Below are positions 5,001-47,312 of a stretch of 64,000 nucleotides of DNA, in pieces. The translations under genes and the position numbers were made by a program. Where the stretch lies: assembly GCA_947561715.1 (NCBI GenBank), contig OX387197.1, forward strand, positions 17,902,266 through 17,966,265. Direction: 5' to 3'. Within the stretch, counting starts at the first letter, position 1. Each line of letters starts with the position of its first letter. Source of the DNA: Ascidia mentula. Its lineage: Eukaryota; Chordata; Ascidiacea; Phlebobranchia; Ascidiidae. The notes under the pieces were generated by a model, which was not told the DNA's origin, did no database searches, and saw only the letters and a list, made by a program, of their open reading frames with translations.

Positions 5001-8000
5001 TGTTTGTCAACACTGTTTTTATCTTGTTTAAACTACGATCACGTACGGGAATCTCGGATGTCGAGTTATTCCCTGGTCTGGGAAAAACAACGACCTGGAA
5101 ACTGGATTCGATTCCGGACCGCTGATCGGATAATGAGGAACTGTAAAATCCCCACAACCTTCTCTGGAATGAAAGAAGTGTAATCATTTAATACAGTAAA
5201 CTGTCATTCGCTTCAACAGATGTACGGCGGTCAGTGGTTTGACAGGTATGTTGATTTGGAATTGTTAATAAAAACTTAAACTTGTGTAGGGTTGCCAAAC
5301 ATTGGAATTTTCCCTGGAACACTCGCTGTATCAGATATCTTAACCATTGTTGACAAACCGTGGGAAAACTGTAAGTGTCATGATCTGTTCGTCTGGCAAC
5401 AGGATCTTACGAACTTCCTTTCTTCTGCGTTACAAATTTCAAGCATGTTTAATTTCTTCAGTTTGTCGTGTCTGTCTCTGATCTATGACTATATGCTTGC
5501 TTGTGCACTGCTTTTATAAGAGACTGACTGTTAAACAACTTTATTCGCACGAGCTTTCGCGAGATTGATCTCGCTTCATCAGGTGCAGCAAAAAAAGCAG
5601 TGCTTCATCAGGTGGTTGTTTAACAGTCAGTCTCTTATAAAAGCAGTGCACAAGCAAGCATATAAGCATGTTTAAGCAACTCCTAATTTTCACAAAGGCG
5701 ACAGTTGACGGGTTAAAATCAATATAAAAACTACTTGATCATATGTAAAAAGTTCCTTGTTGAATTATCACCAGGTTTGGGTTTAAGTTTACCTTAATGC
5801 CATGCACTCCTCTACAGCATGCAACCGGTTTATATCACTGGAAAAGGGATTTGCCGGAGTCGATTCCAAAGTGTAACTGGCGTATTCTTGAGTCCACGCC
5901 GCTGTTGGACTGAATTTTTTTTACTTTGAAGAAAGCTTGCGAATAAATTTTTCGACCGTAAACTATTTATTGAGAAATGTTCGCAACAGAGGCATAAAAA
6001 ACATGACATGTTGTTACTTTGGCAAAACTCCATGAGGATGTTGTTTGTCATTTATTGTGCTATTCAGCTCCAATGCCTTTATATCCATGAAATGGTATCT
6101 ACCTTAAATCCTGAAAATCAATCTCTGTCTACATTTTATATGACTCTGCAACAATTTTTTTTAAACCTAAAATTTTCCGCCAGCTGCAGGGGCCTTATTA
6201 TTAAGCAGTGTCTTAATGTTTAACAACCATTTGCGAATTTTTGAAGAGGTCCTTACAAAACTTGGTGAATCCCCTTTGTGTAAAAATGACTTCCGACCTG
6301 TCCTGATTTCACAAAAAAAAAACATCAACAAATACAAACTTTTTTGTTTTAGCACTTTTTTCTCGCAGTTTGTTGCACAACTCTTCACCACGAATCGCAA
6401 GCCGCACCCTTTTGTTTTCGTGATCCAACTTCACAATCATGTATTCAACCTATAAAGAAAACAGCTAGTATATTTAGTTTATCCATAAACCCGATCGTAA
6501 AATGTCGGGGCCCGATATTGACAGTTAAAAGTTTACATGGCTTTGAATGCAGTGCGGTTAATTATTGTAACGCCTACTTCAGTGCTCCTGGTGGGCACAG
6601 ACGTCCACTCTGGTGCTTCTACGTAGATTCAAAAACGCGCCTGCCAGGTCCCAACTACAGGCTTCTTCCCACTAATATCCAACAAAATTCCAACAGTTTA
6701 TTGTATTAACAAAGCCCTTGTTGGCTTCAATTAGCGAGATGTACTTCACGGGATTAGGCGGACGGTTTTCTAAATGAAATATTGGGCCATGAGTACGATA
6801 GAAAAATGCCGGTTTCAAAGATAAAACATTCTCACCGAAACGTTTTGACCAGGACTTTAAACAGTTAATTTTCAACGAGCATTCAAGTCGAACTGCAAGT
6901 AACAAACAAAGTACACTTTAAACCAGGTTTGACAATTCAAGACAATGGCTATTGACATAAACACACATGCAAATAAAACAACACTTACCGAAAACAACTG
7001 GGTCACTAATTACTGTGAGACTTGATGTTCACAGCAATAAAAACAGGTTACTTAACTTGTTAAGAATAATTAACTTAAATTTCCTGCAAAACAAATAACA
7101 CAAGATTCGTAGACCCACGAAACTAACTACAGTTGTCAGCAAACTTGCCGAACACGAGGGGAGAATTTCTCCACGTGGAGGCGCTATTTATACAGAAATT
7201 TACCATTTGGGGAGACAGTAGATTTACGATGTAACATCCTCCCCCACAAATGTACGGCTCAGAAGAGTACATTTCCAATTCACAAACAAAAAATAACATC
7301 GTAAATCGCACAAGTTACGGAGACGAAAAATTTGCCAATTTCAATTGGCTAGTTGCAGCAAAGTCTGTATGAATAAACATGCGTGGGTGTTAGCTCAACA
7401 GCATAGCGTTCATTTCTTCATGTCTTCCTTCAATTTAGAGCACCACGCTCAATACTAGTAGTCGACGACTAGTTGTCGGAGCCTGTCGAATGCACTTGGG
7501 AACCGCTAGCCTCGAAAACAAGGCACAACTTTGCAATTGGCCTTTTGATTATGTTTGATTTCGTTTTGACGTCGACTTGTCTGACAACTCCATGTTTGTC
7601 CGGATAGGTATTTATAACTCGACCAAGGTCCCAGCCTCGACGGGGCATAGATTCGTTAACAACGAGAACAATATCGCCGACTTCGATATTTTTTCTTCTG
7701 TCTGGCCACTTTTGCCGCAAAGCGATGGTTGGCAAGTACTCATTGGTCCATCGTCTCCAAAATTCGTCAGCTAAGAACTGCACTTGGCGCCAGCGACGGC
7801 GGGTGTAGTTGTCCTTTTCGTCAAATTGCCCAGGTGCCATAATAGGGCTTGGCTTCTGTAACAGAATGTGATTGGGTGTCAAAGGAACGTCGTTGCTTGG
7901 ACTAAACGTGACGGGCGTCAACGGTCTGGAGTTGAGTATATTTTCAACTTCCACCATCAACGTACGTAGGGTATCTTCACTAATAATCGGGGACTTGTGT

Positions 8001-11000
8001 AGCATCGAGTTCAGGATTTTTCGTATGGAACGGATTAATCTCTCCCATATGCCGCCCATGTGACTTGCTGCTGGGGGATTAAACGCCCATTTTATTCCTT
8101 TCTGTTGAAGATGAGCTTCCAGCTTCTCCTTGTTCAGCTCCTCCAGGGCTTCGCGTAAAACACGCTCTGCTCCCACAAAATTCGTTCCATTGTCGCTATA
8201 AATTTCAACTGGCTTTCCTCTTCGGGCAATAAATCTTCTCAAGGCGTTTATGAACGAGTCGGTTGACAAATCTTCGGCAACTTCGATATGCACGGCACGC
8301 ATCGTCATGCAGGTAAAAATGCAGCCATATCTCTTTACTTCGCTGCGGCCGCGCTTCACTAAAAAGGGACCGAAAAAATCGATTCCGGTGTACGAGAATG
8401 GTGGCTCGTTCGGCTTCAAGCGTGCTGGTGGTAGATCTGCCATCAGTTGCTGACTGCGAGGCACGTTGCGTTTGCGGCAAGGTATACAGTGAACGAGAGC
8501 ACGACGGACAGCTGCACCACCCTTGACAATCCAGTACTTCTGGCGGATCGCCGTCCATGTATGTGCAGTCCCTGAATGACCGCCTTGCTCGTGGTAATGC
8601 GTAATAATTAGCTTTGTCAAATGGTGATTACTTGGTAAGATGATGGGATGTCTGGATTCAAAGGGAATGGGTGCGTTGTCCAATCTTCCTCCAAGTCGAA
8701 GGACACCGCTTATCAGTTGCGGGTTTAACTTGTTTAAGCACTTCGTTTGGTTAGACTTCTTCAACCAGCGACGACCCTTTTGATCTGTGCCTAAATTCGA
8801 CAGAGCTTCAAATGCAATTGGAAACGCTGACCTTTGGACATACTTCACCAATTCCAGCTCTGCCTGTAAAATCTCTTCAACAGTCAGTTTTCCCTTCTGA
8901 ACAGTTTTCTTCGAATGCAGGTAGAGTTTGTACCGCAATATCCAGGCTACTGCCTTCTTCAACTTAAACAATGACGAAAACCTGTTTATTAAAGTGTCAA
9001 CAGGATTGATTGTAGAACAGCAAGTTGCCATTGACTTCTTTACTTCAATTGGCTTAAATTCGTCTGGTACACATTCCTTAAGGGCAGGGTTACATGGCCA
9101 AGAACTTTCATGCTTCTGTAAAAATCTCGGACCCTTGAGCCATAAACTTGATCCAAGCAGCTTCTTCACTGAAATTCCTCGTGATGCTTCATCAGCCGGA
9201 TTCTGCTTGGTTCCTACATGCCTCCATTGGGATGTGGTAGTTTGCTGATGTATTTTTGATAAACGATTTGCCACAAATGTGGAAAAACGCTTTCTCTCAT
9301 TTGAAATGCTAAAAAGAACAGCACTTGAGTCAGTCCAAAATGTAGATCTACAATCAGGATAGTCCAAGTGTTCATGTAACCACTTGTCAGCTTTAACAGC
9401 AAGAACAGCTGCAACAAGTTCCAATCTGGGAATGCTTTCACTTTTTGGTGGAGTGACCTTAGATTTTCCACACAGAAAAGAACAATATACACAATGATTC
9501 TCATCCTCTTGTCGAAGGTAAGTAACAAATCCATAACCATTTACAGATGCATCACAGAAATGGTGGATTTGGCGTTCAATCACTCTTCCAAAATCTGGTG
9601 GGTTCAAACATCTTGGCAATAAAAGCTGCTTAAGTTCAGGCAGCTGACCACACCATTTTTTCCACTTTTCGGACAGGAATTCTGGGATTGTGTCATCCCA
9701 GCCCAACTTCAACTGAATAACTTCTTGCTGAATTCTTTTTGCAACTAAAACAACAGGTGCTGCAAAACCAAGAGGATCATATAGGGAATTAATGACCGAC
9801 AATAGTCTTCTTCTGGTAAGTCTTTGTTCGTCAATATAGCTTCTTGTTCGAAACCCAAACTTGTCCTCAAATACATTCCAATACACGCCCAGCACTCTTT
9901 CCTTGACACTTTCTTTCGGGCTGATATCTTTCATTGATTTTGCTATTTCAGTTTCAGGGATCCGGTCCAAAACTGCTTGGCTGTTTGAAATCCACTTTGT
10001 GAGACGAAAACCTCCCCTTTGTAGCAATTTACAAAGTTGGAAAACAGTCTTAATTGCTTCCTCTTCAGTAGGTGCAGATGCTAAACAATCATCTACATAA
10101 AAATTGTGCTTCACTATTTCAGACACATGTTTGTCAAACTCATGTCCAAATTCCTCAGTGGTGTGCTTCAAACAGAATGTAGCCATACATGGGGATGAGG
10201 TGGCTCCAAATATGTGGACTAACATTCGGTGAACTGTTGGCTTCTTTGTGAGATCACCTTCAGGCCACCATAAAAACCTCAGTAAATTTGAATCACTCTT
10301 CTTTACTCTAACTTGGTGGAACATAGCTTCCACATCACCAACAATTGCAATTTGATTCTTTCGGAAGCGGGTTAGCACACTGACCAGACTGTTAACAAGG
10401 TCAGGACCCTGCATGAGACTATCGTTTAAGGACACACCCTTTTGTGTTGCAGCGCAATCAAAGACGACTCTGACTTTGTCTGGTTTATGTGGGTGATAAA
10501 CTGGATGGTGAGGAAGGTACCACGTGGGGTCACTTGTTTGTAGTTCTTCAGTTGGCACCTGTTCAGCATATCCTTTGTCTATGTACTCTTGAATTCTTTC
10601 CACATATCCTTTGCAAAGGAAGTCATCCTTTTGCAAGCGCCTTTGCAAATACAGCAATCTTTTTTGCGCTGAAACTAAATTGTCTCCAGGTAATTTTACG
10701 CTATTCCTCTTGGGTAAAGGTAGGACAAAATGTCCATCCACATGTTTAACTTCTTCCTTCATAAACTTTAAAACCTTTCTGTCTTCCTTAGATGTGGGGA
10801 ATTGCAAATCTCCAGGTTCTTCACAAAAATCTTGGTACCATGACCTTTGTATTCTTTGATCCAGTTCCAATGTTCTGATTCGATTGGCTTGCACATACCC
10901 TTTATCTGGTGATGGACCAATCAACGACCACCCCAGTGGAGTTCTCGCAGCAAATGGCTCCTTTTTCCCTCCAGTTCGAATCTCCAGGGTGCGATGAGCA

Positions 11001-14000
11001 TACGGTGTATCGGTACCAATTAACAGCATAATTTCCTCACTGTCAACCTTTGGCATCTCAAGACCTTTTAGATGAGGCAAGCTTTGTAGATCCTCGTCAG
11101 TTGGGTAGGAGTATGGACTTACTGGAATATGATCCACGGACATGGCTTCTTCAATGTTGATGACTTCATTACCATCCATGGATACCACTTGTAAATCAAC
11201 ACCAATTCCTTCTAGCATCTTTGGCCTCCGCCCAAGTGTATCCATTTGAATGCGTTTGAACTTTCCCTTTAAACCAAGTTTTTCGATTAGCTTTGTATGA
11301 CAAAACGTAGCATCGGACCCAATGTCAAGAAAGGCATAGGACTCGAATTCTCTGCCATTGGCAACAAACTTTACAGGTAGGACACTCATATATGCACTCC
11401 TTCCATTCTTTGATGTGTTGCAACAAACCTTCCCTGTACAAGGCACATCACTTACAGATGAACTTACATTTCTTGCATCAGGATTTCTTATAGCTGATGC
11501 ACTTCTTGTGGGCAAATGCAATAATGCATGGTGCTTTCTTCCACAACCTTCTACAGAACAAGTAACAGCTTCTTTGCACTGCTTTGCAATGTGACCAGGA
11601 TTTAGGCAATTGAAACATAAATACTTCTCACGAAACCAGTTGGCTCTTTCTGAAACAGATTTTTTCTTCAAACTAGGGCAGTCAACGAAGGAGTGACTTT
11701 GGCTGCAGAACAAGCACTTCGAAACTGATTTTGTAAACCTGGTCTGTGTGGGCGCTCTATTCGCCTTGGTTACAACTGTGTGAACAGAACTCTTCTTGGG
11801 TGGCTTGTCCTGGGGCTTCCTTTCTTCTCTTTTGCGAGGTACCAGCAGTTTTGCAAAAACAGTGTTGGCAACCTCTGCTTCTTCTTCAACAAACTCCACT
11901 AAATGCTGGAAATTTGCTTCTTCACCCTTTTCTCGGAGAATAGTAGCCGCACGACGTTTCCACAAATTCTGTGAGTTGTATGGTAACTTCAATACCAACT
12001 CAACCAACCTGTCAGTGGTGTTCAGATCACTAAAATTTCCCAAGCCTTTCAAAATCAAAAGACATTTGCGCAGTGAAGTAGCAAACTGCTGCAAACCATC
12101 AGAATCATCTGGTTTGAGATTTGGACCACTTGTAAGTTGGCGAACAAAGGCTCTTGACACTATGTATGGTTTTCCGAAATTGTCATATAGAATGCTTTGA
12201 GCTTGAGCATATCCCAATTCAGGTGGCATAACTGTACAATGCTCAATTAATGAGTAAGCCTTTCCTTTGCAATAATTCATTAGATAGTTCATCTTTACTC
12301 GATCAGAAGGTGCCTTCTTTTCAATAGTGGCTTCGAAACTTCTGATAAATGGCCAATAATCCATTGGTTCTCCATGAAATTTCAGTGAATCTGTTTTTGG
12401 TGTAGACATTGCATCACCAACTGCTGCCATTATTCCACGCACAACAGCACTTTCAGGTTGTACAGTTTCTGCTTTAGATGGGTTTGCTGGGTCAGCTTTG
12501 TCCAGCGGAGAGGTGTACTTGGACTTGCAGGGCTTCAACAATAGAACTTCATTTTCTTCAGCAAGACCATTATGAAAAAGTTTTGGAATATCGGTTTCAT
12601 TTGATCTCATTTTCCCATCATCTAGAGACACATTAGAAGCTGCCTCCCAAATTTTAACTTCTGCTTCAGCTTCTTCAATTTCACACTGTGCTGCTAGTGT
12701 TTGCCTTTGAGCTTCAAGTTTTTGTTTTTCATGTTCAATTTGTTGTGTTTTCTCAACATGCCGTGATCTCACTTGAGCCTTTTCAAGACGAACCTTTGCT
12801 TCCAACCGCTTTACACTGGATGATGTACTTCCCTGTGTCTTTGTAGAGCTTCTTGAAAAATGGGTAGACTTGGAAGAGCTCGTCCTCGCACTTCGGGCCT
12901 GTTGCACAGCCGGAAAAGTACGAACAGCAACTGGAGATGTAACGAATGACGAAGAACTAACATCAATGTTCTCTCCAACCTGAATTTTGAAATTCGTTTG
13001 AAACTGACCAATTCTTGCTTCCATTTCCTTCTTACATTGAATGACTTCCTGTAACTGTAGTTGAAAGTCATCATGCCTTTCACCTGATGGCACCCACTCT
13101 AAAAGCTTAGAATATGTGTTTATCAAGCGAGTTGAAACTTCTTCAATACGTTTTGAAACAGAATTAACCAATGAAATATCTTTGTACATGATTGCATTTT
13201 CAGCAGTCTTATACCAGTCATTCAGTAATTCTTTGTCATGCTTCAGTTGGATCATTGAAGGTGCTGCATGTTTTTTCAGCACTACTTGGTGCCTAGATAT
13301 TGGTGATGAAAAGGATTGACCTCCTTCACTTCCAGGCATAGCTTCACTTTAAATCAAAAACGTTTGTTTTGCAAACGTTTCGAAAACTTCGAATGTAACG
13401 CCTACTTCAGTGCTCCTGGTGGGCACAGACGTCCACTCTGGTGCTTCTACGTAGATTCAAAAACGCGCCTGCCAGGTCCCAACTACAGGCTTCTTCCCAC
13501 TAATATCCAACAAAATTCCAACAGTTTATTGTATTAACAAAGCCCTTGTTGGCTTCAATTAGCGAGATGTACTTCACGGGATTAGGCGGACGGTTTTCTA
13601 AATGAAATATTGGGCCATGAGTACGATAGAAAAATGCCGGTTTCAAAGATAAAACATTCTCACCGAAACGTTTTGACCAGGACTTTAAACAGTTAATTTT
13701 CAACGAGCATTCAAGTCGAACTGCAAGTAACAAACAAAGTACACTTTAAACCAGGTTTGACAATTCAAGACAATGGCTATTGACATAAACACACATGCAA
13801 ATAAAACAACACTTACCGAAAACAACTGGGTCACTAATTACTGTGAGACTTGATGTTCACAGCAATAAAAACAGGTTACTTAACTTGTTAAGAATAATTA
13901 ACTTAAATTTCCTGCAAAACAAATAACACAAGATTCGTAGACCCACGAAACTAACTACAGTTGTCAGCAAACTTGCCGAACACGAGGGGAGAATTTCTCC

Positions 14001-25212: not shown

Positions 25213-25627
25213 TTGTTGTTGATTTATGTATGTTGTGAAACGATAATGGCGTGTGCCTTTTTTGAAAATTGTACGGACTATGAAGATGATTTTTTTTCTG
25301 ACTCCGAAACTACCTTTTGGGGTTTCGTAGTAAGTTATGAATTATGTGAACGGATGGCAATGTAATCACGTATGTGACGTACTATGAAGTCGTGGGATAT
25401 TTTTCTTTCCTTAAATTGACACTTACAATATACTTGTTTTCTAACAAAGGGACGTTATATACACACTTCTACTATACTCCTATTTTTGTTTCATTTGAAA
25501 TATTTTTGCTCTTTTGTAGACCCCATGATGCATATTAAACCAAAGTTAAGTGCTCTGTGCATTTGGTTAAAGATATAATGCTGATTTTATCCGTTGAACT
25601 TTCGTTGAGATAAACAATATTTTACAC

Positions 25628-25844
25628 TATTGGTTGAGCTTGCTTGGCCGTAGTGTTTCCACCTTGTTTGCTCCGTAAGGTTGCACCTAGTTTGGTGCCC
25701 AACGGATGACGGTGACTGTATAGTCACCACAAAGTGGAAGTCTTTGCTTGGCCGTTTGGTCAGCAAAGTCGTCTGATAGTCACACCAGCTGCACTGATGA
25801 GACCTTTTAGGTCGAAACAGTGGCCATCTGTCTGCAGCTTATAC
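25628..25844 (+). mobile_element. Short retroelement ending in a hammerhead ribozyme, copy 1
   Basis: A 217-bp insert flanked by an exact 14-bp direct repeat ACAATATTTTACAC (25614-25627 and 25845-25858), read as a target site duplication. A complete hammerhead ribozyme lies 6 bases from its 3' end. Its last part (from CAAAGTGGA near 25729) is shared with the shorter inverted copy at 60600-60721. Copies with a common 3' end and different 5' ends suggest target-primed reverse transcription with 5' truncation. No protein is encoded. Penelope-like elements and retrozymes are known carriers of hammerheads; which of these it derives from is not decided by this sequence. Confidence 0.8.
25787..25839 (+). 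ncRNA. Type I hammerhead ribozyme, copy 1
   Basis: All invariant positions are present. Stem I is AGCTGCA (25787-25793) with TGCAGCT (25833-25839), 7 perfect pairs. The core is CTGATGA (25794-25800). Stem II is GACCT/AGGTC with a 3-base loop (25801-25813). GAA plus A15.1 follows (25814-25817). Stem III is ACAG/CTGT closed by a 7-base loop. Cleavage residue C17 is at 25832. Stem I is open, which makes it type I. Predicted self-cleavage is after 25832. Confidence 0.93.
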
Positions 25845-26220
25845 ACAATATTTTACACGTTTGTTACCAAAGGGTTGAAATGTTTAAAACTATACACGAC
25901 AAATTTCTTGCAGAATCAACAACAAATATCACGCACAAAAGCATACAAAGTACTTCGTGACGAACCAAAAAGCTTTATCTGATTCCAAGGCACCACTTAA
26001 AACATCACTAGCCCACTTGATAAATAGTCCGAAGTGCTGAGTATCCAGCAAAACGTTTCAGGGTCATACAGTGGTCGTATAGGAAAACATATACGGATAA
26101 TAGAGATATGACCATGGAGATTTTCTGCGAATGTTTCATTACGACAGGCAAGAAAGGTGGCTTATACAGCTTCCACACAGTCGCTCGGTGTTTGAAATTT
26201 TTCAGTCGTCTCGTCCAGGG

Positions 26221-34851: not shown

Positions 34852-36240
34852 GATTTCGTCAATCTTCCATTCACATCATGTTGAACTATAGGTATTTCAC
34901 TTTCATGTTTCCAGTTTCCTATTGTGGGGTCACGCGAGGACACGCTGGTCGTTCACAAGGCGTTTGCTGAAAACTCTGATCTCTGACAGCGACTTTGGAA
35001 TGTTTTTACTTCAAACTTCAAGTTCGCTTAAACAATTTTAGTGCAAATATTCTCTTGGCTATATACACCTGCTAGTAGAAATTGTACCTTTTAACACAGT
35101 ACATTGGATTCAAACAAACCATAATTCTTAGTATGCATAGCTTTGCAAACTTTTATATGTACAAAGCGCTTTCACGAAGAGGAACAACTGCCGTATGGAG
35201 CATTTTTTCAATCCATTTTGTATTGTTAGGGAATCCAACACAAGAGGGCTCGAAATTATTGATTTTTAATTATTGAGTGAACATCGCCTCTTGACAAAAT
35301 ATTATGCTTAATCACATAGCGCGTGATAGCCGGTAGTTTTTGGCGGGCTTTTGGGTTTTGTTGTGACAACGTGTGCTGTGACAACAAATTTTTTTTTTAT
35401 GAATCAACCATTTTCATTCGGGTTTTTACAGACATGCAATATATGCTGGAAATGCACATCGAGTTTTTTCAAGATCCTACGATGAAAATACCCTTAGTTA
35501 CGCCTTAGATCAGTAAACATTTCTATGCTTTGTTTCGCTGGAAGCAGAAGACCATAGCACGTACAAATTTTGAAGACAATACCGAAATTTGCACTTCTGT
35601 TTTTAGATGATGTGAATGTTTAGTTAAAAAATAAAGCATCATTACATTCACTATTTAACATCTTCTTACCGACAAGTAACACGTCAATCAATGCATAATG
35701 GGGATTAGGTCAATTTTTTTCAGTTTGCCTGGTTTTTACCAATGTTGCTTCAAAACAAACAAATTTTTGACCCATATTTTGGAAAGAAATAACTTTGTTG
35801 GTGATATTAATCATAATGGAACACCAGGTACGACTGGCCTTTATAAACCCAAACCATTGATCTCTAATGTTTAATTAATAGAGATCATCAGTGCCATAGA
35901 ACAATGATTTGTTGAGGGAAAGCCCCTGGGACACAAATAAATCATATCGCTTGTGAGTTGAAGGTGTTATATTAGACATAAATCACAACACCGATTAATT
36001 TTTACTTTATCAAAATTTTATTTAATTGTTGGTATAGTAATAGGATTCTTAAGAGTGGACTAAGGTAATTTCAAACTAGGTTAATCTACATATTTTATGT
36101 TTTTATATGTTCAACGTTTTTAGTCCCAAATGTTGTCACTCGCGCGCAACGGAGTATCCCAACATCTCGGATTCACATGCATATCAGTGTTTAGTTCCCT
36201 AAAATAAATTTGACAAGTGTGGCATACAGGTTAAAACAAA
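34852..36240. other. Intergenic region between divergent CUB/EGF and HOIP-like genes
   Basis: No exon is supported. It should contain promoters of both flanking genes. The palindrome at 35858-35887 is the only structured element seen. Confidence 0.5.
35858..35887. repeat. Short palindrome TGATCTCTA / TAGAGATCA, copy 2
   Basis: Same 9-base perfect arms as at 17270-17297 with a 12-base AT-rich loop. On the minus strand both copies continue with similar TGA-rich sequence before the left arm. Confidence 0.6.
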
Positions 36241-39200
36241 ATGCAGAATGAAAATAACATCAATCATCTGTATGAGAAATTTGTTTATGCTGTTACGAAT
36301 TCGTTGCCAAAAGAAGAAGTAAAGAACTTGGTTGTAAACATGGTGTCTGCCTCCGAAACCTGGACATCTCGATATAGACGATTAAATGTGAAAAAGATTG
36401 TACAAGACAACTCAGATGGTAATGAAGTTAGTTTTCTGGAAATGGTTGGGGCATTAGAAGTGTTGGAAAAGTACGGCAAAAATTTGCTGAAAGAACCTCG
36501 ACCCGCACAATGGAAAACCATTCGCTTATCAAACTCAGTGTTTCGAAGGAAAGTTGATCCAATGATGGGTTCAAGACAAATTCTGCAGCAACTTGGATAT
36601 ACTAAACCAATAGTTGACGGTTATTCATTTCCTCCTGATGTTTTATCACCCAATGTAAGTGAAGTTATCTCAGTTACAGCAGATATTGTCCAATTAAAGT
36701 TTGAACTTTTAATGATGCACAAAGGTATTCATCCAAAAAGCCAAATATTCAAAACTCTTTTAAATCTGGAAGCTTCTTCCCAATCAACAAACCTGACTGC
36801 ACCAAATTCACCACAGAGTGAAACCCAAAACATTGACACATCAAATGAAGTTCAATATGGAATAGATGATATGTGTGTGGTATGTGGACTAAAGGTAGCT
36901 GAATTCCAGTGCAATACATGCAACAAGGTCCAGTGTGCAGAATGTGATAAAATTTGGCACCAATCTCCTGCCCGAGTAAATCACAAGCGAATTAAATATA
37001 AGCCTGCAGGATCTGCAGAAGAAGCACCTTCAAGTTCATCAGAGATAGCAGATGTAACACCTGTTACTGATGCAAATCCAGCAACTGATTGGGAAAAACG
37101 CATTTTGCAAATGGCAGACACACTTTTGGAATTAAATGATGCGGAAGAGAAAAAGGAACATCTTGTACGTTTTACCAGTTTAATCGATGAACAAATATCC
37201 AAATATAAGGATGGTTCCAGTAGGTTTACTTCTTTGCAATTATCCAATCATTTATTGGAGCGAGCAAAATCTCTTGAAACTGCAAAGGAAGACCTGATCA
37301 AACTGGCTTTTGGAGACCAGGAAAGTTCCTCACAGGCAGAGGATCATGGCTTCAGTATAGATATTAATATTTCTGATGTTCGCGGTCCTCCATCATCTCA
37401 TTATATTCCATCAGTTGTGTCGCTTCAGAGCTATCAGGAGGAAGTTTTATTTCAAGGAGGACAAAGTGGTGTGATTATTGCACAGATGCAACAATCTGTT
37501 TTTGAGCACACTGTAACAGAAACTGTGCAACAACCATCTACTAGTATTTTTCTGGCCAATGCAATGACAATACAAGATATCCATATGAAAACAAAACAGG
37601 AAGATAAACGACGTCAGTGTATTGAAATGATTGATATTTTAAGAGAAGCAGAAGGCAAAGGTTATAGTCCTGCAAATGTACAATCTGTGCTGAACAACTA
37701 TAACGCAGAAACACATGGTAGTCTGCAACGTTTCCTTTCAAAAGAATTATATGGTAAAAAATTTCCTCCTGCGCAAGAGGAAACTGGGACAAACGGAAGA
37801 TTTACTGAAGCTGCAAAGAGATTAGAAAAGAAGGGGGCATTTGCTTTGGATTCTGATTGTGTTTCAAAACTTCAGGGATTTTATTCAAGATTAAACAAAA
37901 AGACAACACTGAGACTTTCAGATTTTTTGAAAATGGACACAATGTGGGCCCATCGTGCTTTAATAACAATGTTTTCTGTGAAATCAGAACCAGTAAGTAA
38001 CATAATGCTTCTCTTGCTTACTCACTCCTGTGAGTCAGAGCCATTTTTAGCAACAACGATATGTGATTTTACTGATATATTTGAGGCTGCGCAAGCTTTC
38101 CCTGAAAACCTTGACGGGGCTGTGAAATATCTTAAAAAGCAGTGCATGGTCTGTTTTGAAATGTTTGCTCAAAGCAAAGTTGAGTGCATGACCACATGCA
38201 GTGATAATGAGTGCAAGTACTGCTACAAATGCTTGGAGTCATACTTGAGGCATCAGATAAAGGAAGGCAACATTCGGGACATTGTTTGTCCAGTCTGTAA
38301 AATGCCCGATATTGATGAGGATGAAGAAACAACCACAAACTACTTTAACTACTTGGATGTTGTGGTTAGGACCAGGTTAGAAAGTGAAGTTCACACACTT
38401 TTTCAGCAAAAACTTCGCGATCAAACATTGATGAAAATGCCCAACTTCAGGTGGTGTTCCCATTGCACCAATGGATTTTTGTTCGAGCTTGAAGAAACCA
38501 CCTTGAAAATGGTCTGCACCTCATGCCAGAAGGCCACATGCTACAGCTGCAAAAAGAGGTGGGAAGCACAACATGAAGGACTGTCATGTGAGAAATTTCT
38601 CCAATGGAAACAGCTGAATGATCCGGATTTTCAAGCCGCAGGACTTGCTGCACACCTAAAAGAAAATGGCATTGATTGTCCGACTTGCAAGTTTAAATAT
38701 GATCTTGCCAAAGGGGGCTGCATGCATTTTAAATGTCTAATGTGTTCATTTCAGTTTTGCAGCGGGTGCAAAAATCCATTTAAACAAGGCAAGGTGTGCA
38801 ACTTGCTTCCGTCGTGCCACAAAAAGGGTTTGCACGCTCATCATCCCAGAGACTGTTTGTTTTACTTGCGCGACATGGACGCGGACCAACTTAAGGAAAT
38901 TTTAAACGAATCCGAGATTGAGTTTGAAACTGAGAGTGTGGCAAGTGACTTGCCTTGTCAGGTTCGAGAACAAAAGGAAACGTCAACAGGATTAATAGAC
39001 GACGTTTGTGGCCGGGACGTTCACAACAGCAACACAGGTTTATGTTCACTGCACTATAAGGAGTACTTAGTAAATCTTATAAATAACAACAAATTGGATC
39101 CAGCATGTGTATTTTCAAAGGACGAGTTAATAACTTGTTTAAATCGTGTGGAAGGTACTGTACCGCAACAATTGACGACTCAATCGGATGAGGAGTATGT

Positions 39201-39264
39201 AAAATGTTTGTTGGATGAAGTGCGGCGGTTACCGCTGACTCACCAACTAGCGGGAAAGTCATAA
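36241..39264 (+). CDS. RNF31: HOIP-like RBR E3 ubiquitin ligase, intronless (copy A)
   Basis: HOIP is the catalytic subunit of LUBAC and makes Met1-linked ubiquitin chains in NF-kB signalling. This 1007-aa frame has no introns. Domains: PUB (about 15-140, LEMVGALEVLEKYG and SNSVFRRKVD, keeping the Asn used for OTULIN/CYLD binding in the family); a B-box-like zinc finger (about 211-250, CVVCGLKVAEFQCNTC); a UBA-like helical region (about 455-570); RING1 (from Cys635, CMVCFEMF); IBR (about 735-790, WCSHCTNGF); RING2 with the catalytic Cys at residue 827 in GGCMHFKC; and an LDD-like C-terminus (HHPRDCLFYLRD, CSLHYKEYLVNLIN) that specifies linear chains in HOIP. I see no Npl4-type zinc fingers, which vertebrate HOIP has. 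It lies in a tandem duplication with a broken second copy. Confidence 0.93.
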   Translation: MQNENNINHLYEKFVYAVTNSLPKEEVKNLVVNMVSASETWTSRYRRLNVKKIVQDNSDGNEVSFLEMVGALEVLEKYGKNLLKEPRPAQWKTIRLSNSVFRRKVDPMMGSRQILQQLGYTKPIVDGYSFPPDVLSPNVSEVISVTADIVQLKFELLMMHKGIHPKSQIFKTLLNLEASSQSTNLTAPNSPQSETQNIDTSNEVQYGIDDMCVVCGLKVAEFQCNTCNKVQCAECDKIWHQSPARVNHKRIKYKPAGSAEEAPSSSSEIADVTPVTDANPATDWEKRILQMADTLLELNDAEEKKEHLVRFTSLIDEQISKYKDGSSRFTSLQLSNHLLERAKSLETAKEDLIKLAFGDQESSSQAEDHGFSIDINISDVRGPPSSHYIPSVVSLQSYQEEVLFQGGQSGVIIAQMQQSVFEHTVTETVQQPSTSIFLANAMTIQDIHMKTKQEDKRRQCIEMIDILREAEGKGYSPANVQSVLNNYNAETHGSLQRFLSKELYGKKFPPAQEETGTNGRFTEAAKRLEKKGAFALDSDCVSKLQGFYSRLNKKTTLRLSDFLKMDTMWAHRALITMFSVKSEPVSNIMLLLLTHSCESEPFLATTICDFTDIFEAAQAFPENLDGAVKYLKKQCMVCFEMFAQSKVECMTTCSDNECKYCYKCLESYLRHQIKEGNIRDIVCPVCKMPDIDEDEETTTNYFNYLDVVVRTRLESEVHTLFQQKLRDQTLMKMPNFRWCSHCTNGFLFELEETTLKMVCTSCQKATCYSCKKRWEAQHEGLSCEKFLQWKQLNDPDFQAAGLAAHLKENGIDCPTCKFKYDLAKGGCMHFKCLMCSFQFCSGCKNPFKQGKVCNLLPSCHKKGLHAHHPRDCLFYLRDMDADQLKEILNESEIEFETESVASDLPCQVREQKETSTGLIDDVCGRDVHNSNTGLCSLHYKEYLVNLINNNKLDPACVFSKDELITCLNRVEGTVPQQLTTQSDEEYVKCLLDEVRRLPLTHQLAGKS

Positions 39265-40114
39265 GACGTTGCAGAATTTTTTTCATTATTTTTAAATCGA
39301 GAACTGTACCGTAAAATAAACTTGGTTGTGGGTTGTTTTCTGAAATACTGTAACGCGAAAAAACACGCACAAAACAGAAGTTATGGCGATATCTTCACGA
39401 AGCCCAGCGTTGCTTTCAAACTCCAGCCTTTGAGGTTTTGCAAACATACTCTATGCGTTTTATCGAGCACTTTTCCAACCGTATGTAATATACGTTTTTC
39501 AACCATTTTCATTCCGATGTTAATTTGTCATGCTTTTATATTAGATGTAACAAATTCGATTTTTCTCCTTGCGCAATTACTTGTTACGCTCGTTTAATTT
39601 TTGTACTACGGTTCATATGACTGACCTTTCAGTAGCCTATGCGGCCACTGCTGAAAATTAGTTGCTACGTGACACTTTCAGCGTACCATCCGATGTTTTT
39701 CATTCAAAACAAAATTTTTTTGTGCCATACTAATCGAAAGCATGTCACATCGACATTCTTGCGTAGAAATTATGGCTTGAAAAAACGCAAAACTGTTTAT
39801 TGTCTTACTTTCTTGCAGCGTATCTTCTGCTGACAAAGGAACATTGCTTTCTGGAGTCTTGGGTTTAATAAATAGGATTCAACGTGTTTTTTTTTGCAAA
39901 ATTTAACCTTGAATTATTAATCGTATGTGGAAACTCCTCTAGTTCTCCGCAACCGGTGTACCGTGATGTGATTAAGGTGTTTCGCATCAGCATAACTAAA
40001 CATTTGTTGTGGATTTTACCGTTATGCAAAGTTGGGCATTTGAACCAAACTCTTGCTAGACGACCAACTGCGCAGGTACATTATTTAATTACGGCTTAGA
40101 AAATTTGCACTTTA
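39265..40114. other. 3' flank of HOIP-like copy A
   Basis: Non-coding sequence nearly identical to 47313-48165 behind copy B. Short open frames in it are present in both copies but show no domain or codon structure. Confidence 0.6.
39315..39320 (+). terminator. Polyadenylation signal AATAAA for HOIP-like copy A
   Basis: AATAAA about 50 bases past the stop. The same signal is at 47363-47368 behind copy B. Confidence 0.55.
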
Positions 40115-42438
40115 GGACCTATATGGGTATTAGATTGGAGAAATCCTGTGTTCAAGGCCCTCGGCTGTAATGCATCTAGCGACTGTTCCGCTTGTTTCCC
40201 AATGACCGTTGATGGGTCTTGTGACTTACATAGGGACCTCAAATTCTACAAAGTTGAAAAAAAAAATTGCGCCTGGATGAGACTGTACAGAGCAAGGACT
40301 TTTTGGGCCTCCTGAAAGATCATATGACCAACAGGGGGGTATACCCAGCCCTTGGGGGAGGGCTTCGACACTTTTTCAGCAACTAAATTTGATGCCATCG
40401 CATAGAGAAGAGTTGGAACTTACAAAAAATGCAAATGAGTGGGTAGTTGAACGATTCATTATTCTGCAAAATCCAGTTCCATTTTTGGTTGCTCTTTTAA
40501 GACCGCATATCAGTAATTCTATTAGAATAGTTTTGCCCGCGGGGAATGCCCGTCTTGTACTCCTGCGTCATAGAGAGTCTCAGTTCCGTCACAAGGCAAC
40601 CGGTGATGCGTTGGGATCAATTTTCTGGTTGAATGAGCAAGAAGTCACGTGGTGTAGCCAGGGCGATTTTCAGCGTGTTTGGTGCAGCTTTAGTGCATTT
40701 TTTGCTCTTCTCAGTCAGTCAGACGTTTGGTGCAGGGTGCTGTGAAAAGTTTAGTTGAAAAACCACCAAAATGTTCAAGGGGATGTAGCTCAAAATTGAA
40801 TCACAGAAGTATACCTTAATTTGTGATTTTATGTTAGGCCCGCCTCTTGGCTACGCAGTATAAGGTTTTTTTTTATATTTTTTTTTTATATTTTTTTTTT
40901 TTTTTTTATATATTTTTTTTTTTATTGAAAAAGGACGCTAAAGGCGTACAATTGAAGAAAAGGCTAAGCAAGAAGACAAAAAACAATGGTTAAACACAAT
41001 GGCGAGAAATCAGCAAAAGAGAGTCAAGTTATTTGGGTATATGCTTCAAGCAGCGTATAGGACCACTTTCTTCTGTAATAATTCGTTTCGCTACAGTATT
41101 TTTCACTGGCGATGTTTAGTTCTATAGATCTTGTTTTTTGCAACATGTTAACAAATTCTGTTATTGTTGGTTTCCTCTTACCGTATTTGCATCGATAAAT
41201 CACAAATCTGGCACAAAGAAGAGCGCAATTTAAAAAGCATTCAAAAATATTGTTATTTTCATGTCTACCAAACAGTAAATGCGCACGAGAAAAATACAAG
41301 GGTACACGGAGTTTAGCGCTTAGCCAACTGCATACATTTTCCCAGTAATGTGCTGCGATAGGACAATTTACAAATAAATGTAAAACCGTTTCCTCGGCAT
41401 TTTCGCAAAAGACACATGAACCTGTTTCTATAAACTTCAGATCTTTTAACTTTTTATTGGTCACAATGGCCCTGAGATTTAGCTTAATTTGAAAACTTAT
41501 TAATTTAGTTTTACGCAGTATAAGGTGAAAATTAGTTGCAAAATAGTTGCTTAAAGCACCACCTAGGGGTCATTTAGGCCCCCGATCAGTCATTATTTTA
41601 GCTAAATGGGCTGCAAAAAAATGTAAGATGGTTTTGCGAAAAAATGAATCACAAAAACCTCATCCAATTTGCAATTTAATGTTGGCCCTAACCCTTTTCT
41701 ACGCAATAGCAAAATAAATTGTCACAGGAAAGTTGCTTTGGTTGCCCCCTGGGACTGTTTTTGCTATCCTATAGGTTTTTGCTATCCAAAAGATCCTCCA
41801 GGAGGCTCCTCAGATCCTTGCTGTGTTTTGGCGGATGCAGCTGCAATCAATTTTTTTTCTCTATGAATAGTACCAGTAGATCTTCATGGGTCACTGACCA
41901 CAGGAAATGTTGTTCGCAAAAAAGCAAATCACTCAGTATGGGTATTAATGGTGATAGCCTTCAAAACCAGATTTTGGGGATTTAATACTGATATGCGGCC
42001 TTAACCAAAATATTGAGTAACCAGGGGGGCAAATGGCCCTAGGGGGGTGGCTAAACCATTTTTTTGGAGACTAATTTTGATCAAAATTTGTAGATATGAA
42101 ATGGATCTTTCATAAAATCACAAATGATTGGACACTTAAACGATTCATTTTGCCCCAAACACAGCCTGATTTTTTTGTTCAACATAAATTTCAGCAGCAC
42201 CCACCAGCAAGTTACTACCTAATTGGAATAGCTCAAAACCCCACTAAAACTGCCCCAAACACCCTAAAATTCGCCATGACAACAGCACGCACATGTGCGC
42301 TCATTCAACCGCAAATTTAACTTAATTGCGTCACTGCTTTGCTTGGTGATGCATGACTTTGCATTGTGACACAGGTCTACACGGTGGGCATTTCCCAGCA
42401 CCAAAACTAATTTTCATAGAAATACCAATATGCGTCCT
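40115..42438. mobile_element. 2.3-kb TIR element of unknown class
   Basis: Ends GGACCTATATGGGTATT and, inverted, GGACGCATATTGGTATT (14 of 17 identical). Flanked by TTTA (40111-40114, 42439-42442). Unit B has the uninterrupted site with a single TTTA near 48154-48157, which proves an insertion. Without the nested LINE it is about 1.66 kb. The interior consists of diverged internal repeats and no long reading frame. The 4-bp (or 5-bp) target site excludes hAT, but the superfamily is not identified. Confidence 0.8.
40867..41511 (-). mobile_element. 5'-truncated LINE insertion nested in the TIR element
   Basis: A 645-bp insert flanked by an exact 15-bp target duplication TACGCAGTATAAGGT (40852-40866, 41512-41526). 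The A-rich 3' tail (T/TA-rich at 40867-40924 on the plus strand) is at the expected end. The 146-codon frame 41464-41024 holds a LINE C-terminal zinc cluster (CVFCENAEETVLHLFVNC). Truncation removed everything upstream. Confidence 0.93.
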
Positions 42439-42442
42439 TTAA

Positions 42443-43829
42443 AAACCTGTAGTTGCGTAAGTAGGTGTATCTTGAAGTTTGTAAGTGCGTCGTTAGCGTA
42501 GAAAAGGTTGCTAAGCACTGCTCATGTGTGAGGTAAACTTTCAGCGTGATCAGAATCCGCGTGCAGATCTTCATGATTTTTGAGCTTCGAACTAAGAAAA
42601 AGTTGCTCGATATTAAACAGAATTATAACTTACAAAAAAGCTGAGGTAGGTTTCATTGAAAATAACAATAAAAATATCTGCACTTTCATTTTTAAATGGT
42701 GTAAATGATTTTGACCGAACAACTCCAATCCTGTTTCTAATGCATAAAGTTCATATTTTTCGTTGTTAGTACCCCTTGTGAAATAGATGTTAGCATTTTC
42801 CAGTTACCATGTCTGCATTTTCCAGTTTTCCGTGTCTGTACAGCAATTGCGTAAGTTTTGATCTTTATGCGAACATACAGCATGTCGCAACCTCGCCACC
42901 ATGCCCGCAGGAACTGACGCTATTGACACTTCCATACATTTATTGCGCGAAATTTTCCTGTATATTCACACCACACGCTTTCCTGTACACGTCATTAAAC
43001 AAATAAAGAACTAGGGTACCCGTGAACGCACGCAGCTACGCACCAAACTGTGATAAAACAAACCCTGTCAATTGTTTTTTCGGACATTATTAGGAAATTG
43101 GTAAACAATATTCTGAACCAATTTATCAAGAGTTCTTATAAGTTATATGCATGTGGTGCGGAAAGCAGAAGCAAGCATAAGTTTCATTGTCAGTAACAAA
43201 CGGGCTTAAAACAAAGTCGTTTCGTTCACAAGATATGGCGGTCAGAAGAAAAAAAACATTCTTATTCCTCTTAATTTGGTGAATTTGTTGTTTTTATATT
43301 AGCACAGAATAAAAACTTCGCGTGTTCCGTCCTTCTCATGGGTGGCGCAAGCGATCCTTGGCGAATTTTGTTATTTATTGTTCGTGCTGAGAGCGAATAA
43401 TAATAAGACGCTTTTCGTAACAGACCGAGAGGTGATATTGTTTTGGTCTGCAGCATTCTTTGCTGCACCTTGTATAGAGTGCATAGTATGTAGCCGACGG
43501 CTGATACAACTTGCTTTTGTTGTCAGTCGACGAAGTTCGACCCTATCTAGAGATTATGTATTAGAAGAGTGCACTTTCTTTCATGCGCATTGAACGACCC
43601 TTCGTTAACTGTTGTAATTATAAAAGGAGAAGCCCAAATAAAACCTTCACAGAATAATCTTATTTTGCCATTGAATGTTGTTCAGGGATGCCAGGGAAAA
43701 ATTTTGTGGGGATAAGTTAAGTGTAGAAGTAACGGTCAAACACATTTTGGAGAAATTCATAGAACAGCTAAAATGCATCAAAATGTTCTGCATTGGTTTT
43801 CTCTGCTTGTATGAATAAGTGTTGGTAAC
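42443..43829. other. Non-coding part of unit A
   Basis: Parallel to 48160-49776 in unit B. Open frames containing CAPCIECIVCSRR-like strings occur in both copies but differ by indels, so they are not supported as genes. Confidence 0.5.
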
Positions 43830-44279
43830 TAGTGATGTTCCCAGTTGCAAATTATCCGACCCGGCCGGATCCGGATAGTTATCAATCAAATCCGGCCGGA
43901 TAACTTGGATCCGGCAGTTTGTTAACACCGATTCGTGTATTTTATCGGTATGGCAAAAATGTTTGATTGCCAAACAGAATGCTTTGTTTAGGTTAGCTTA
44001 TCATGAGTGGAAGAAATAAACGTGGGTATTTAATAATATGGTATAAGACGTCAAGAAAAAACCTTAATAACAAACATCCGAAAAATCGGAAGTCGGCGAG
44101 TTTCACAGACCGGGTCCCAAAAAACGTGTAATTTGCGAATGTTTGTCCGTTTTTAGGACAAAAATGCTTTCCCAACTATCCGGTAAAATCAAGTGTATTA
44201 TCGTGCCGGGTCCGGGTATTGAAAATTGGTCAATATCCGGCCGGGTCCGGGAACCCGGATCCGGCGCAAGACATCACTA
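43830..44279. mobile_element. hAT-type MITE, 450 bp, rich in CCGG motifs
   Basis: Terminal TAGTGATGT / ACATCACTA inverted repeats and an exact 8-bp target duplication TTGGTAAC (43822-43829, 44280-44287). Unit B shows the empty site with one TTGGTAAC (near 49773-49780). Both subterminal regions carry many CCGG-containing strings (CCGGCCGGAT, CCGGGTCCGG), a pattern typical of transposase-binding repeats. There is no coding capacity. Confidence 0.96.
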
Positions 44280-44377
44280 TTGGTAACCTAGGTGAATCGT
44301 GACTGCCGTTTTGGTACAGCATATTTGTCTGTGTTTCAGGGAAAAGTATTTGTTTTTTTAAGACTTTCTGGTTATGG

Positions 44378-47312
44378 TTGGTTGTAAACATGGTGTATTC
44401 CATCAAAACCTGGACATCTCACTATAAACAATTAAATGTGAGAAAGATTGTACAAGACAACTTAGGTGGTAATGAAGTTAGTTTTCTGGAAATGGTTGGG
44501 GCATTGGAAGTGCTGGAAAAGTACGGCAAAAATTTGCTGAAAGAACCTCGACCTGCACAATGGAGAACCATTCGCTTATCAAACTCAGTGTTTCGAAGGA
44601 AAGTTGATCCAATGATGGGTTCAAGACAAATTCTGCAGCAACTTGGATATACTAAACCAATAGTTGACGGTTATTCATTTCCTCGTGATGTTTTATTACC
44701 CAATGTACGCAAAGTTATCTCAGTTACAGCAGATATTGTCCGATTAAAACTTGAATGTTTGATGATGCTCAGAGGTATTCATCCAAAACGCGAAATATTT
44801 GAAACTATTTTAAATCTGGAAGCTTCTTCCCAATCAACAAACCTGACTGCACCAAATTCACCACAGAGTGAAACCCAAAACGTTGAAACATCAAATGAAG
44901 TTCACTATGGAATAGATGATATGTGTGTGGTATGTGGACTAAAGGTAGCTGAATTCCAGTGCAATACATGCAACAAGGTCCAGTGTGCAGAATGTGATAC
45001 AATTTGGCACCAATCTCCTGCCCGAGTAAATCACAAGCGAATTAAATACAAGCCTGCAGGATCTGCAGAAGAAGCACCTTCAAGTTCATCAGAGATAGCA
45101 GATGTAACACCTGTTACTGATGCAAATACAGCAACTGATTGGGAAAAACGCATTTTGCAAATGGCAGAAACACTTTTGGATTTAAATGATACGGAAGAGA
45201 AAAAGCAACATCTTGTACGTTTTACCAGTTTAATCGATGAACAAATATCCAAATATAAGGATGGTTCCAGTAGGTTTTCTTCATTGCAATTATCCAATCA
45301 TTTATTGGAGCGAGCAAAATCTCTTGAAACTGCAAAGGAAGACCTGATCAAACTGGCTCTTGGAGACCAGGAAAGTTCCTCACAGACAGAGGATCCTGGC
45401 TTCAGTATAGATATTAATATTTCTGATGTTCGCGGTCCTTCATCATCTCATTATATTCCATCAGTCGTGTCGTTTCAGAGCTATCAGGAGGAAGGTTTAT
45501 TTCAAGGAGGTCAAAGTGGTGTGATTATTGCACAGATGCAACAATCTGTTTTTGAGCACACTGTAACAGAAACTGTGCAACAACCATCTACTAGTATTTT
45601 TCATGGCAATGCAATGACAATACAAGATATCCGTATGAAAACAGAACAGATAGATAAACAACTTCAATGCATTGAAATGATTGATATTTTAAGAGAAGCG
45701 GAAGGGAAAGGTTATAGCCCTGCAAATGCACAGTCTGTGCTGAACAACTATAACACAGAAACACATGGTAGTCTGCCAGGTTTCCTTTCAAAAGAATTAT
45801 ATGGTACAAAATTTCCTCCTGCAAAAGAGGAAATTGAGACAAACGGAAGATTTACTGAAGCTGCAAAGAGATTAGAAAAGAAGGGGGCATTTGCTTTGGA
45901 TTCTGATTGTGTTTCCAAACTTCAGGGATTTCATTCAAGATTAAACAAAAAGACAACACTGAGACTTTCAGATTTTTTGAAAATGGACACAATGTGGGCC
46001 CATCGAGCTTTAATAGCAATGTTTTCTGTGAAGTCAGAACCAGTAAGTAACATGATGCTTCTCTTGCTTACTCACTCCTGTGAGTCAGAGCCATTTTTAG
46101 CAACAACGATATGTGATTTTACTGATATATTTGAGGCTGCACAAGCTTTCCCTGAAAACCTTGACGGGGCTGTGAAATATCTTAAAAAGCAGTGCATGGT
46201 CTGTTTTGAAATGTTTGCTCAAAGCAAAGTTGAGTGCATGACCACATGCAGTGATAATGAGTGCAAGTAGTTACAAATGCTTGGAGTCATACTTGAGGCA
46301 TCAGATAAAGGAAGGCAACATTCGGGACATTGTTTGTCCAGACTGTAAAATGCCCGATATTGATGAGGATGAAGAAACAACCACAAACTACTTTAATTAC
46401 TTGGATGTTGTGGTTAGGACCAGGTTAGAAAGTGAAGTTCACACACTTTTTCAGCAAAAGCTTCGCGATCAAACATTGATGAAAATGCCCAACTTCAGGT
46501 GGTGTTCCCATTGCACCAATGGATTTTTGTTCGAGCTTGAAGAAACCACCTTGAAAATGGTCTGCACCTCATGCCAGAAGGCCACATGCTACAGCTGCAA
46601 AAAGAGGTGGGAAGCACAACATGAAGGACTGTCATGTGAGAAATTTCTCCAATGGAAACAGCTGAATGATCCGGATTTTCAAGCCGCAGGACTTGCTGCA
46701 CACCTAAAAGAAAATGGCATTGATTGTCCGACTTGCAAGTTTAAATATGATCTTGCCAAAGGGGGCTGCATGCATTTTAAATGTCTAATGTGTTCATTTC
46801 AGTTTTGCAGCGGGTGCAAAAATCCATTCAAACAAGGCAAGGTGTGCAACTTGCTTCCGTCGTGCCACAAAAAGGGTTTGCACGCTCATCATCCCAGAGA
46901 CTGTTTGTTTTACTTGCGCGACATGGACGCGGACCAACTTAAGGAAATTTTAAACGAATCCGAGATTGAGTTTGAAACTGAGAGTGTGGCAAGTGACTTT
47001 CCTTGTCAGGTTCGAGAACAAAAGGAAACGTCAACAGGATTAATAGACGACGTTTGTGGCCGGGACGTTCACAACAGCAACACAGGTTTATGTTCACTGC
47101 ACTATAAGGAGTACTTAGTAAATCTTATAAATAACAACAAATTGGATCCAGCATGTGTATTTTCAAAGGACGAGTTAATAACTTGTTTAAATCGTGTGGA
47201 AGGTACTGTACCGCAACAATTGACGACTCAATCGGATGAGGAGTATGTAAAATGTTTGTTGGATGAAGTGCGGCGGTTACCGCTGACTCACCAACTAGCG
47301 GGAAAGTCATAA
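44378..47312 (+). pseudogene. HOIP-like copy B, frameshifted in RING1
   Basis: Second copy of the RBR ligase. The first about 29 codons are replaced by the duplication junction; the first in-frame ATG is at 44390. An out-of-frame ATG lies at 44374. The frame ends at TAG 46268-46270 because two bases are missing relative to copy A just after NECK in RING1; the rest (RING1 end, IBR, RING2, LDD) continues open in another frame to 47312. If translated, the product would be PUB, zinc finger and UBA only, without catalysis. It is about 99.5 percent identical to A over the C-terminal third but much more divergent in two patches around PUB. Either a pseudogene or a non-catalytic decoy; expression would decide. 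Confidence 0.88.

Follow-up and report, generated by a model that had tools for sequence, protein, structure and literature searches.

Genomic copies of a 284-nt hammerhead retrozyme in Ascidia mentula point to Penelope-type integration

Our analysis of the genome of the ascidian Ascidia mentula indicates that a short hammerhead-bearing element belongs to a family with a 284-nt unit that fits a metazoan non-LTR retrozyme, and we consider it likely that one circular RNA of this family is copied into both ends of a target break by Penelope-type machinery acting in trans. The family is new, its kind is already known, and the mechanism is unusually clear. The unit, its tandem and inverted structure, the target duplications, the target motif, two 3' end sites and the pairing of these sites are all seen directly in the genomic copies.

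By the window we mean the whole stretch of DNA analysed here, 64,000 nucleotides long (positions 17902266-17966265 of contig C1); the genome searched comprises 195.8 Mb in 79 contigs. The features discussed below are collected in Table 1. The window also holds PUB and RBR E3 ubiquitin-ligase domains in two adjoining sets of open frames (36235-47308), apparently a tandem duplication, and a Pao-type retroelement with an open frame of 1,959 codons on the minus strand (7472-13348).

Table 1. Retrozyme copies, their target duplications and a Penelope-type insert in the window
Feature	Position	Strand	Remarks
Penelope-type pLTR insert	5453-5663	.	12-bp duplication AAGCATGTTTAA at 5441-5452 and 5664-5675
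Target duplication of copy 1, left	25616-25627	.	12 bp, AATATTTTACAC; AAC precedes
Retrozyme copy 1, one-armed	25628-25846	+	unit 1-219, 3' end class A
Type I hammerhead core with stems II and III, copy 1	25794-25832	+	predicted cut 25832/25833; core and helices read from sequence
Target duplication of copy 1, right	25847-25858	.	12 bp, AATATTTTACAC; GTT follows
Target duplication of copy 2, left	60590-60599	.	10 bp, TATCTTATTA, by eye; plus-strand AAC precedes
Retrozyme copy 2, arm A	60600-60690	-	unit ~132-222
Hammerhead of copy 2	60617-60655	-	generic pattern match
Retrozyme copy 2, arm B	60695-60721	+	tail only, unit ~221-247; hand-trimmed at duplication
Target duplication of copy 2, right	60722-60731	.	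10 bp, TATCTTATTA, by eye

The unit and its ribozyme

The original prediction was of a non-autonomous retroelement with a hammerhead, 217 bp long. The element is indeed of that nature, and the length has to be revised: the unit is of 284 nt, made up of the 217-nt query and a 67-nt spacer (as read in one array), and it repeats head-to-tail in arrays with a period of 284-285 bp, so that the 217 nt represent a 5'-truncated copy. Throughout, position 1 of the unit is window base 25628. With 40 of 2,011 candidates scored, the query 25628-25844 has at least 99 matches in the genome, at least 19 of which, the window copy among them, reach the top score, that is, identity over all 217 bases; a same-strand spacing of 284 bp is common among the matches. 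The 39-nt ribozyme core, with at most 3 mismatches allowed, matches at 1,462 places genome-wide (771 on the plus and 691 on the minus strand), a count of ribozymes and not of insertions, and the reversed core matches nowhere in the genome. Copies are single, tandem or inverted. The GC content of the unit is 47.5%, and the longest open reading frame over the forward array at L017 is 67 codons at most, so the unit carries no long frame and none for a reverse transcriptase (RT) or GIY-YIG endonuclease.

The core starts at unit position 167 and the predicted cut lies between 205 and 206. As read from the sequence, stem I (AGCUGCA/UGCAGCU) is open-ended and followed by CUGAUGA, stem II (GACC/GGUC) is followed by GAAA, and the short stem III (ACAG/CUGU, loop UGGCCAU) is followed by C17 and the predicted cut. 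Within the stem III loop lies the palindrome UGGCCA, and in a cofold prediction the stem III strand pairs with a second copy. A generic hammerhead pattern occurs at exactly two places in the window, one in each insert, and in none of 100 shuffles. The complete type I hammerhead and the common 3' part that had been claimed for both inserts are confirmed. In Rfam searches the hammerhead stayed under the gathering cut-offs (20.6 bits where the type III model requires 48.5, and 19.9 where RAGATH-1 requires 56.3), with one search giving no match, and the fold of a 60-nt stretch is no more stable than those of its shuffles (z -0.44). The identification of the hammerhead therefore rests on its conserved core and helices, and for the same reasons we speak of ribozyme activity as putative.

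Published metazoan retrozymes consist of tandem units, 150-450 bp in size, with a type I hammerhead (PMC7229834), and the suggestion that the element may be undescribed accordingly holds at most for the family itself. Beyond the tandem unit and the type I hammerhead, the family shares with the metazoan non-LTR retrozymes of that paper the absence of a long open frame, a GC content below 50%, target duplications of more than 4 bp and the presence of Penelope elements in the same genome (PMC7229834). Amphibian retrozymes have palindromic helix III loops and cleave better as dimers (PMC7229834), and the satellite-DNA retrozymes of newt and axolotl, as described, resemble ours in their short helix III, their palindromic loop and a similar tandem unit size; the roughly 126,000 ribozyme matches given for axolotl stand against 1,462 here (PMC7229834). 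Plant LTR retrozymes likewise are non-autonomous, with a hammerhead and a proposed circular template, but differ in having LTRs, a PBS and a PPT, type III hammerheads and 4-bp duplications (PMC7229834, PMC7761336).

A related retrozyme-like family with a different stem III loop occurs at L038 (1049-1190, with about 72% likeness to part of the unit) and at L003 (268-380). At L080 (C1:21259800-21268900) retrozyme copies recur within a higher-order repeat of 2.8-3.3 kb, and in most of these copies 18 nt replace unit 1-85. We considered whether this locus, with three copies 2.8-3.3 kb apart, might be a Penelope element carrying the retrozyme hammerhead, and rejected the idea because it holds no open frame of 150 aa or more.

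Target duplications and two 3' end sites

We read 85 clusters, including four duplicates and one piece of the related family (L003, 268-380). They comprise L001-L003, from the 8 loci returned for the query (L004-L008 repeat others); L017-L036, 20 places hand-picked from the 99 matches listed, many of them because they bear arrays; and L037-L096, around exact-core sites on C1 among the first 100 core matches listed, with the last five exact-core places on C1 left out. The duplicated segments L041, L046, L047 and L082 were dropped from the duplication, arm-length, pairing and motif-refined counts, leaving 81 insertions. The complex insertion L026 was dropped from the arm-length, pairing and motif-refined analyses, L026 and L041 from the template comparison, and L080 from all counts. 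After these drops C1, window included, contributes 57 insertions, 21 of them two-armed.

Each insertion was expected to have its own target duplication, and for most of them this is what we find: at least 8 identical bases flank 63/81 insertions, at least 10 flank 54/81 and at least 12 flank 48/81, against 3.4%, 0.5% and 0 in 1,598 mispaired flanks. Target sites read AAC^N12^GTT, a symmetric motif with AAC before the duplication and GTT after it. AAC stands at 42/108 boundaries untrimmed and at 66/108 after ambiguous bases are trimmed; since trimming favours any motif looked for, the untrimmed figure is the safer one. The commonest trimmed duplication is 12 bp (27/54). Three control motifs fit less well than AAC/GTT; ACA/TGT, which overlaps AAC, has 5-6 matching bases in 30/54 insertions against 38/54 for AAC/GTT. 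In the window, the direct repeats of 14 and 10 bases originally described are both present, but under the AAC/GTT motif only 12 of the 14 form the duplication of the first insert, and the 10 bases of the second were found by eye where the automatic search gave 6. Nor is the second insert simply 5'-truncated, as had been thought: it has a second, inverted arm B that stands head-to-head with arm A.

The 3' ends fall at two sites. Among the 54 motif-refined insertions, 46 ends (class A) lie at unit 217-225, that is, 12-20 nt past the cut, and 39 (class B) at unit 245-254, 40-49 nt past the cut; outliers end at unit 103, 191 and 258. A stem-loop is predicted at unit 224-257, with A just before it and B in its 3' strand. 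The ends had been expected to coincide near the cleavage site, with self-cleavage defining the 3' end of the RNA. Neither expectation holds, since at both sites the cDNA crosses the cut.

In 38/41 insertions with two head-to-head arms, the 3' ends comprise one of class A and one of class B. Of these 38, 35 have a duplication of at least 8 bases, L037 and L074 have a shorter repeat, and the second window copy was assigned by hand. There are no A/A and no B/B insertions among the 41, and in the remaining three (L031, L036, L095) one end lies elsewhere. If the sites were chosen independently, A/B would make up at most half of the insertions, and 0.5^35 is 3e-11.

The 5' ends of the arms vary. Only 1/121 lies in the region of the cut (204-208). 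Lengths of 274-281 nt, one 284-nt turn minus 3-10 nt, occur in six of the 64 A arms, and lengths of 231-273 or 282-302 nt in none. Some B arms are tail only, stopping at unit 221-231, and the interval 220-231 holds 12/121 arm 5' ends (p 0.005). A further 9/121 lie at 274-284 (p 0.046) whatever the 3' class, perhaps marking a transcription start or an RT stop. These windows were picked after inspection, and the sampling of intact hammerheads distorts the remaining distribution. At the 41 head-to-head junctions the arms overlap by 1-6 nt in 22 cases and by more in 3, abut without overlap in 2 and leave a gap in 14, a pattern that may reflect joining by microhomology.

One template per insertion

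In 12 arrays of at least three units, compared at unit 3-211 and 256-282, each variant is present either in all units or in a single one; an apparent exception in L073 is an alignment artefact, the same inserted T having been aligned differently. This all-or-one pattern suggests one monomeric template for each array, most simply a circle, and a homogeneous multimeric RNA could mimic such a circle. In L026, which was left out as complex, 114A is present in two units and absent from the third.

The two arms of an insertion also share variants. The private variants 160T in L018 and 148A in L073 are each present in both arms and in no other insertion, and the arms of L057 have 12 variants in common, two of them near-universal. 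At recurrent sites, arms of the same insertion differ at 0.53 positions per 100 nt against 1.67 in permuted pairs (30 insertions; lowest of 2,000, 0.80). With all variants counted, the discordance is 2.29 per 100 nt against a permuted mean of 3.60 and a lowest value of 2.09, so that the full set taken alone is not outside the permuted range. In these comparisons unit 212-255 was masked, because A arms run into the flanks there; without the mask the arms differed at 3.25 positions per 100 nt and permuted pairs at 5.13 (lowest of 1,000, 3.42). The arms of L040 have no variant in common and are discordant at 10 sites, including several recurrent ones; the arms of L050 and L054 disagree as well, and these three may be old or composite copies. 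Most insertions that can be judged derive from a single template, with L026 and L040 among the exceptions.

Penelope-type integration and its alternatives

Penelope elements have a published signature, 3' ends that stand head-to-head with a tail on just one of the two sides, and we conclude that Penelope-type machinery probably moves the retrozyme, the putative helper proteins acting in trans. The link to Penelope-like elements drawn in the original prediction is upheld, the 38 A/B insertions showing inverted arms and a one-sided tail. In Adineta, Penelope-like elements have inverted pLTRs with an optional 31-bp tail on one of them, and 8-10 bp duplications accompany several copies and are missing from others (PMC3846280). 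The Anolis element PAc cuts both strands. Its reverse transcription begins at two neighbouring sites, which mark the limits of the tail, and it does so most frequently within an AC-rich stem-loop that lacks homology to the target; the start sites are alike on both strands (PMC11167929). Since the accessible text of that paper gives no difference in start sites between strands, strict A/B pairing is not reported there for PAc; the later steps of integration are described in the same paper as not yet validated. The retrozyme shares with GIY-YIG Penelopes its head-to-head 5'-truncated arms, one-sided tail, target duplications and hammerhead (PMC3846280, PMC11167929), as well as two RT start sites at a stem-loop (PMC11167929). 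It differs in having no RT/GIY-YIG frame and in a hammerhead that has helix III, and its target is AAC^N12^GTT where that of PAc is an ATT motif (PMC11167929).

Elements of this kind are at hand in the genome, with at least 121 GIY-YIG matches (150 scored of 382 candidates). The Penelope-type insert of the window has head-to-head arms, of which just the left one carries a tail, about 38 nt long (by eye), and its target reads TTC^AAGCATGTTTAA^GCA; with its duplications (5441-5675) it bears a minimal hammerhead-like motif. A head-to-head GIY-YIG element on C69, the single GIY-YIG family resolved, has a tailless right end and a left end about 40 nt longer (by eye). It is flanked on both sides by CAAGCTTTATTAT (by eye), its target reading TTG^CAAGCTTTATTAT^ACA, a repeat that is only suggestive because the element lies in a satellite. 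Both inserts share the anatomy of the retrozyme insertions. As neither target is of the AAC/GTT form, neither element is shown to be the helper. The 3' end of the C69 element has only chance-level matches to the retrozyme unit (E 2.7 or worse). L015 (C72 near 14333103) is a further insert of the Penelope type. Its pLTRs are inverted, the right one tailed and the left one tailless (by eye), and its flanking repeat is short and imperfect. L014, tried as a Penelope partner with a similar hammerhead, was rejected: its decayed hammerhead lies about 450 nt past the Penelope frame and is probably an old retrozyme copy.

How could such insertions arise? In the mechanism that we favour, arrays would be transcribed into multimers, which the hammerhead would cut to monomers, and the monomers would be closed into circles. 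A Penelope-type endonuclease/RT acting in trans would make a staggered double-strand cut at AAC^N12^GTT with 5' overhangs, a cut pattern suggested by the duplications and the target motif. Both AAC-3' ends would then serve as primers on a single retrozyme RNA: synthesis from one of them would start at site A (near unit 220, before the stem-loop) and from its partner at site B (near unit 249). Each RT would travel round the circle, covering anything from part of a turn to several turns. The resulting pair of cDNAs would be joined head-to-head, often through 1-6 nt in common, and filling of the overhangs would give the target duplication. Extension of one end only would leave a one-armed copy such as 25628-25846. 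Against this mechanism stand the scores and fold of the hammerhead given above and the fact that no Penelope family here is shown with the retrozyme stem-loop or the AAC^N12^GTT target; against a single template stand the disagreeing arms of L040, L050 and L054, 114A in L026 and the all-variant discordance inside the permuted range.

A more specific version, which we put forward tentatively and rate slightly below an even chance, is that one circle is copied simultaneously from both break ends, a dimeric Penelope-type RT setting its primers at A and B, with the 5' end of the cDNA at A acting as a roadblock. This roadblock would stop the other strand, leaving tail-only B arms, and would stop the A strand itself after one full turn.

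Several alternatives have to be weighed against the circular template. Penelope-type machinery might instead use uncleaved linear multimeric RNA transcribed from the arrays, insertion having no need of the hammerhead. Such a template agrees with the Anolis element, which in vitro inserts unprocessed RNA, hammerhead mutants inserting equally well (PMC11167929), and with cDNA that passes the cut site; the slightly raised number of 5' ends at unit 274-284 could mark a transcription start, and the L026 variant is found in 2/3 units. However, the 12 other arrays lack variants common to some but not all units, and six A arms stop just short of a full turn, so we regard a linear multimer as unlikely. 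Still less probable, in our judgement, is that A is an RT start site and B the 3' end of a linear RNA, one arm starting inside the RNA and the other at its end. This too predicts that each insertion has an A end and a B end, and it fits 3' ends past the cut, but B ends scatter over about 10 nt just as A ends do, and in Anolis both start sites are internal and lengthening the RNA leaves the main product unmoved (PMC11167929).

Mobilisation by a LINE in place of a Penelope element is very improbable. RT domains are abundant, with at least 150 RVT_1 matches (150 scored of 1,254 candidates, all RT types together), but 3' ends that are paired head-to-head at two sites, with a tail on one side, are what Penelope elements leave behind, and we know of no LINE that produces them. 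Reported open frames of 3,977 to 19,197 aa on C15, C21, C49 and C51 hold RT matches and are perhaps masked stretches. Spread as a DNA satellite, by unequal crossing-over or extrachromosomal circles, might be suggested by the tandem units and by the copies carried in the higher-order repeat at L080, but we reject it as scarcely credible in view of the insertion-specific duplications, the two narrow 3' end classes, the 5' truncation and the A/B pairing.

The likely reading of one circle copied by Penelope-type machinery bears on proposals already in the literature. Circles of metazoan retrozymes have been measured in coral, mussel and axolotl (PMC7229834), and Penelope elements have been named as strong helper candidates, with circular templates inferred (PMC7229834; review PMC7761336). 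In these papers, as far as their accessible text goes, the enzyme that moves retrozymes and the use of circles as templates are proposed rather than shown. Beyond PMC7229834, the genomic copies here show two fixed 3' sites that are used as a pair, a motif at the target, and single-template identity; the retrozyme literature covered by our search, with most subscription journals and supplements outside it, yielded neither paired A/B ends nor single-template identity. The dozens of well-flanked copies read here, like the more than 1,000 ribozyme sites still left, each document the reaction, and the copies are strong evidence for Penelope-type integration. If one circle is indeed copied simultaneously by a dimeric RT, the A/B pairing would mean that the integration complex is obligately asymmetric. 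With these copies the idea of a Penelope helper becomes directly testable, and the family offers a sharp picture of Penelope-type integration.
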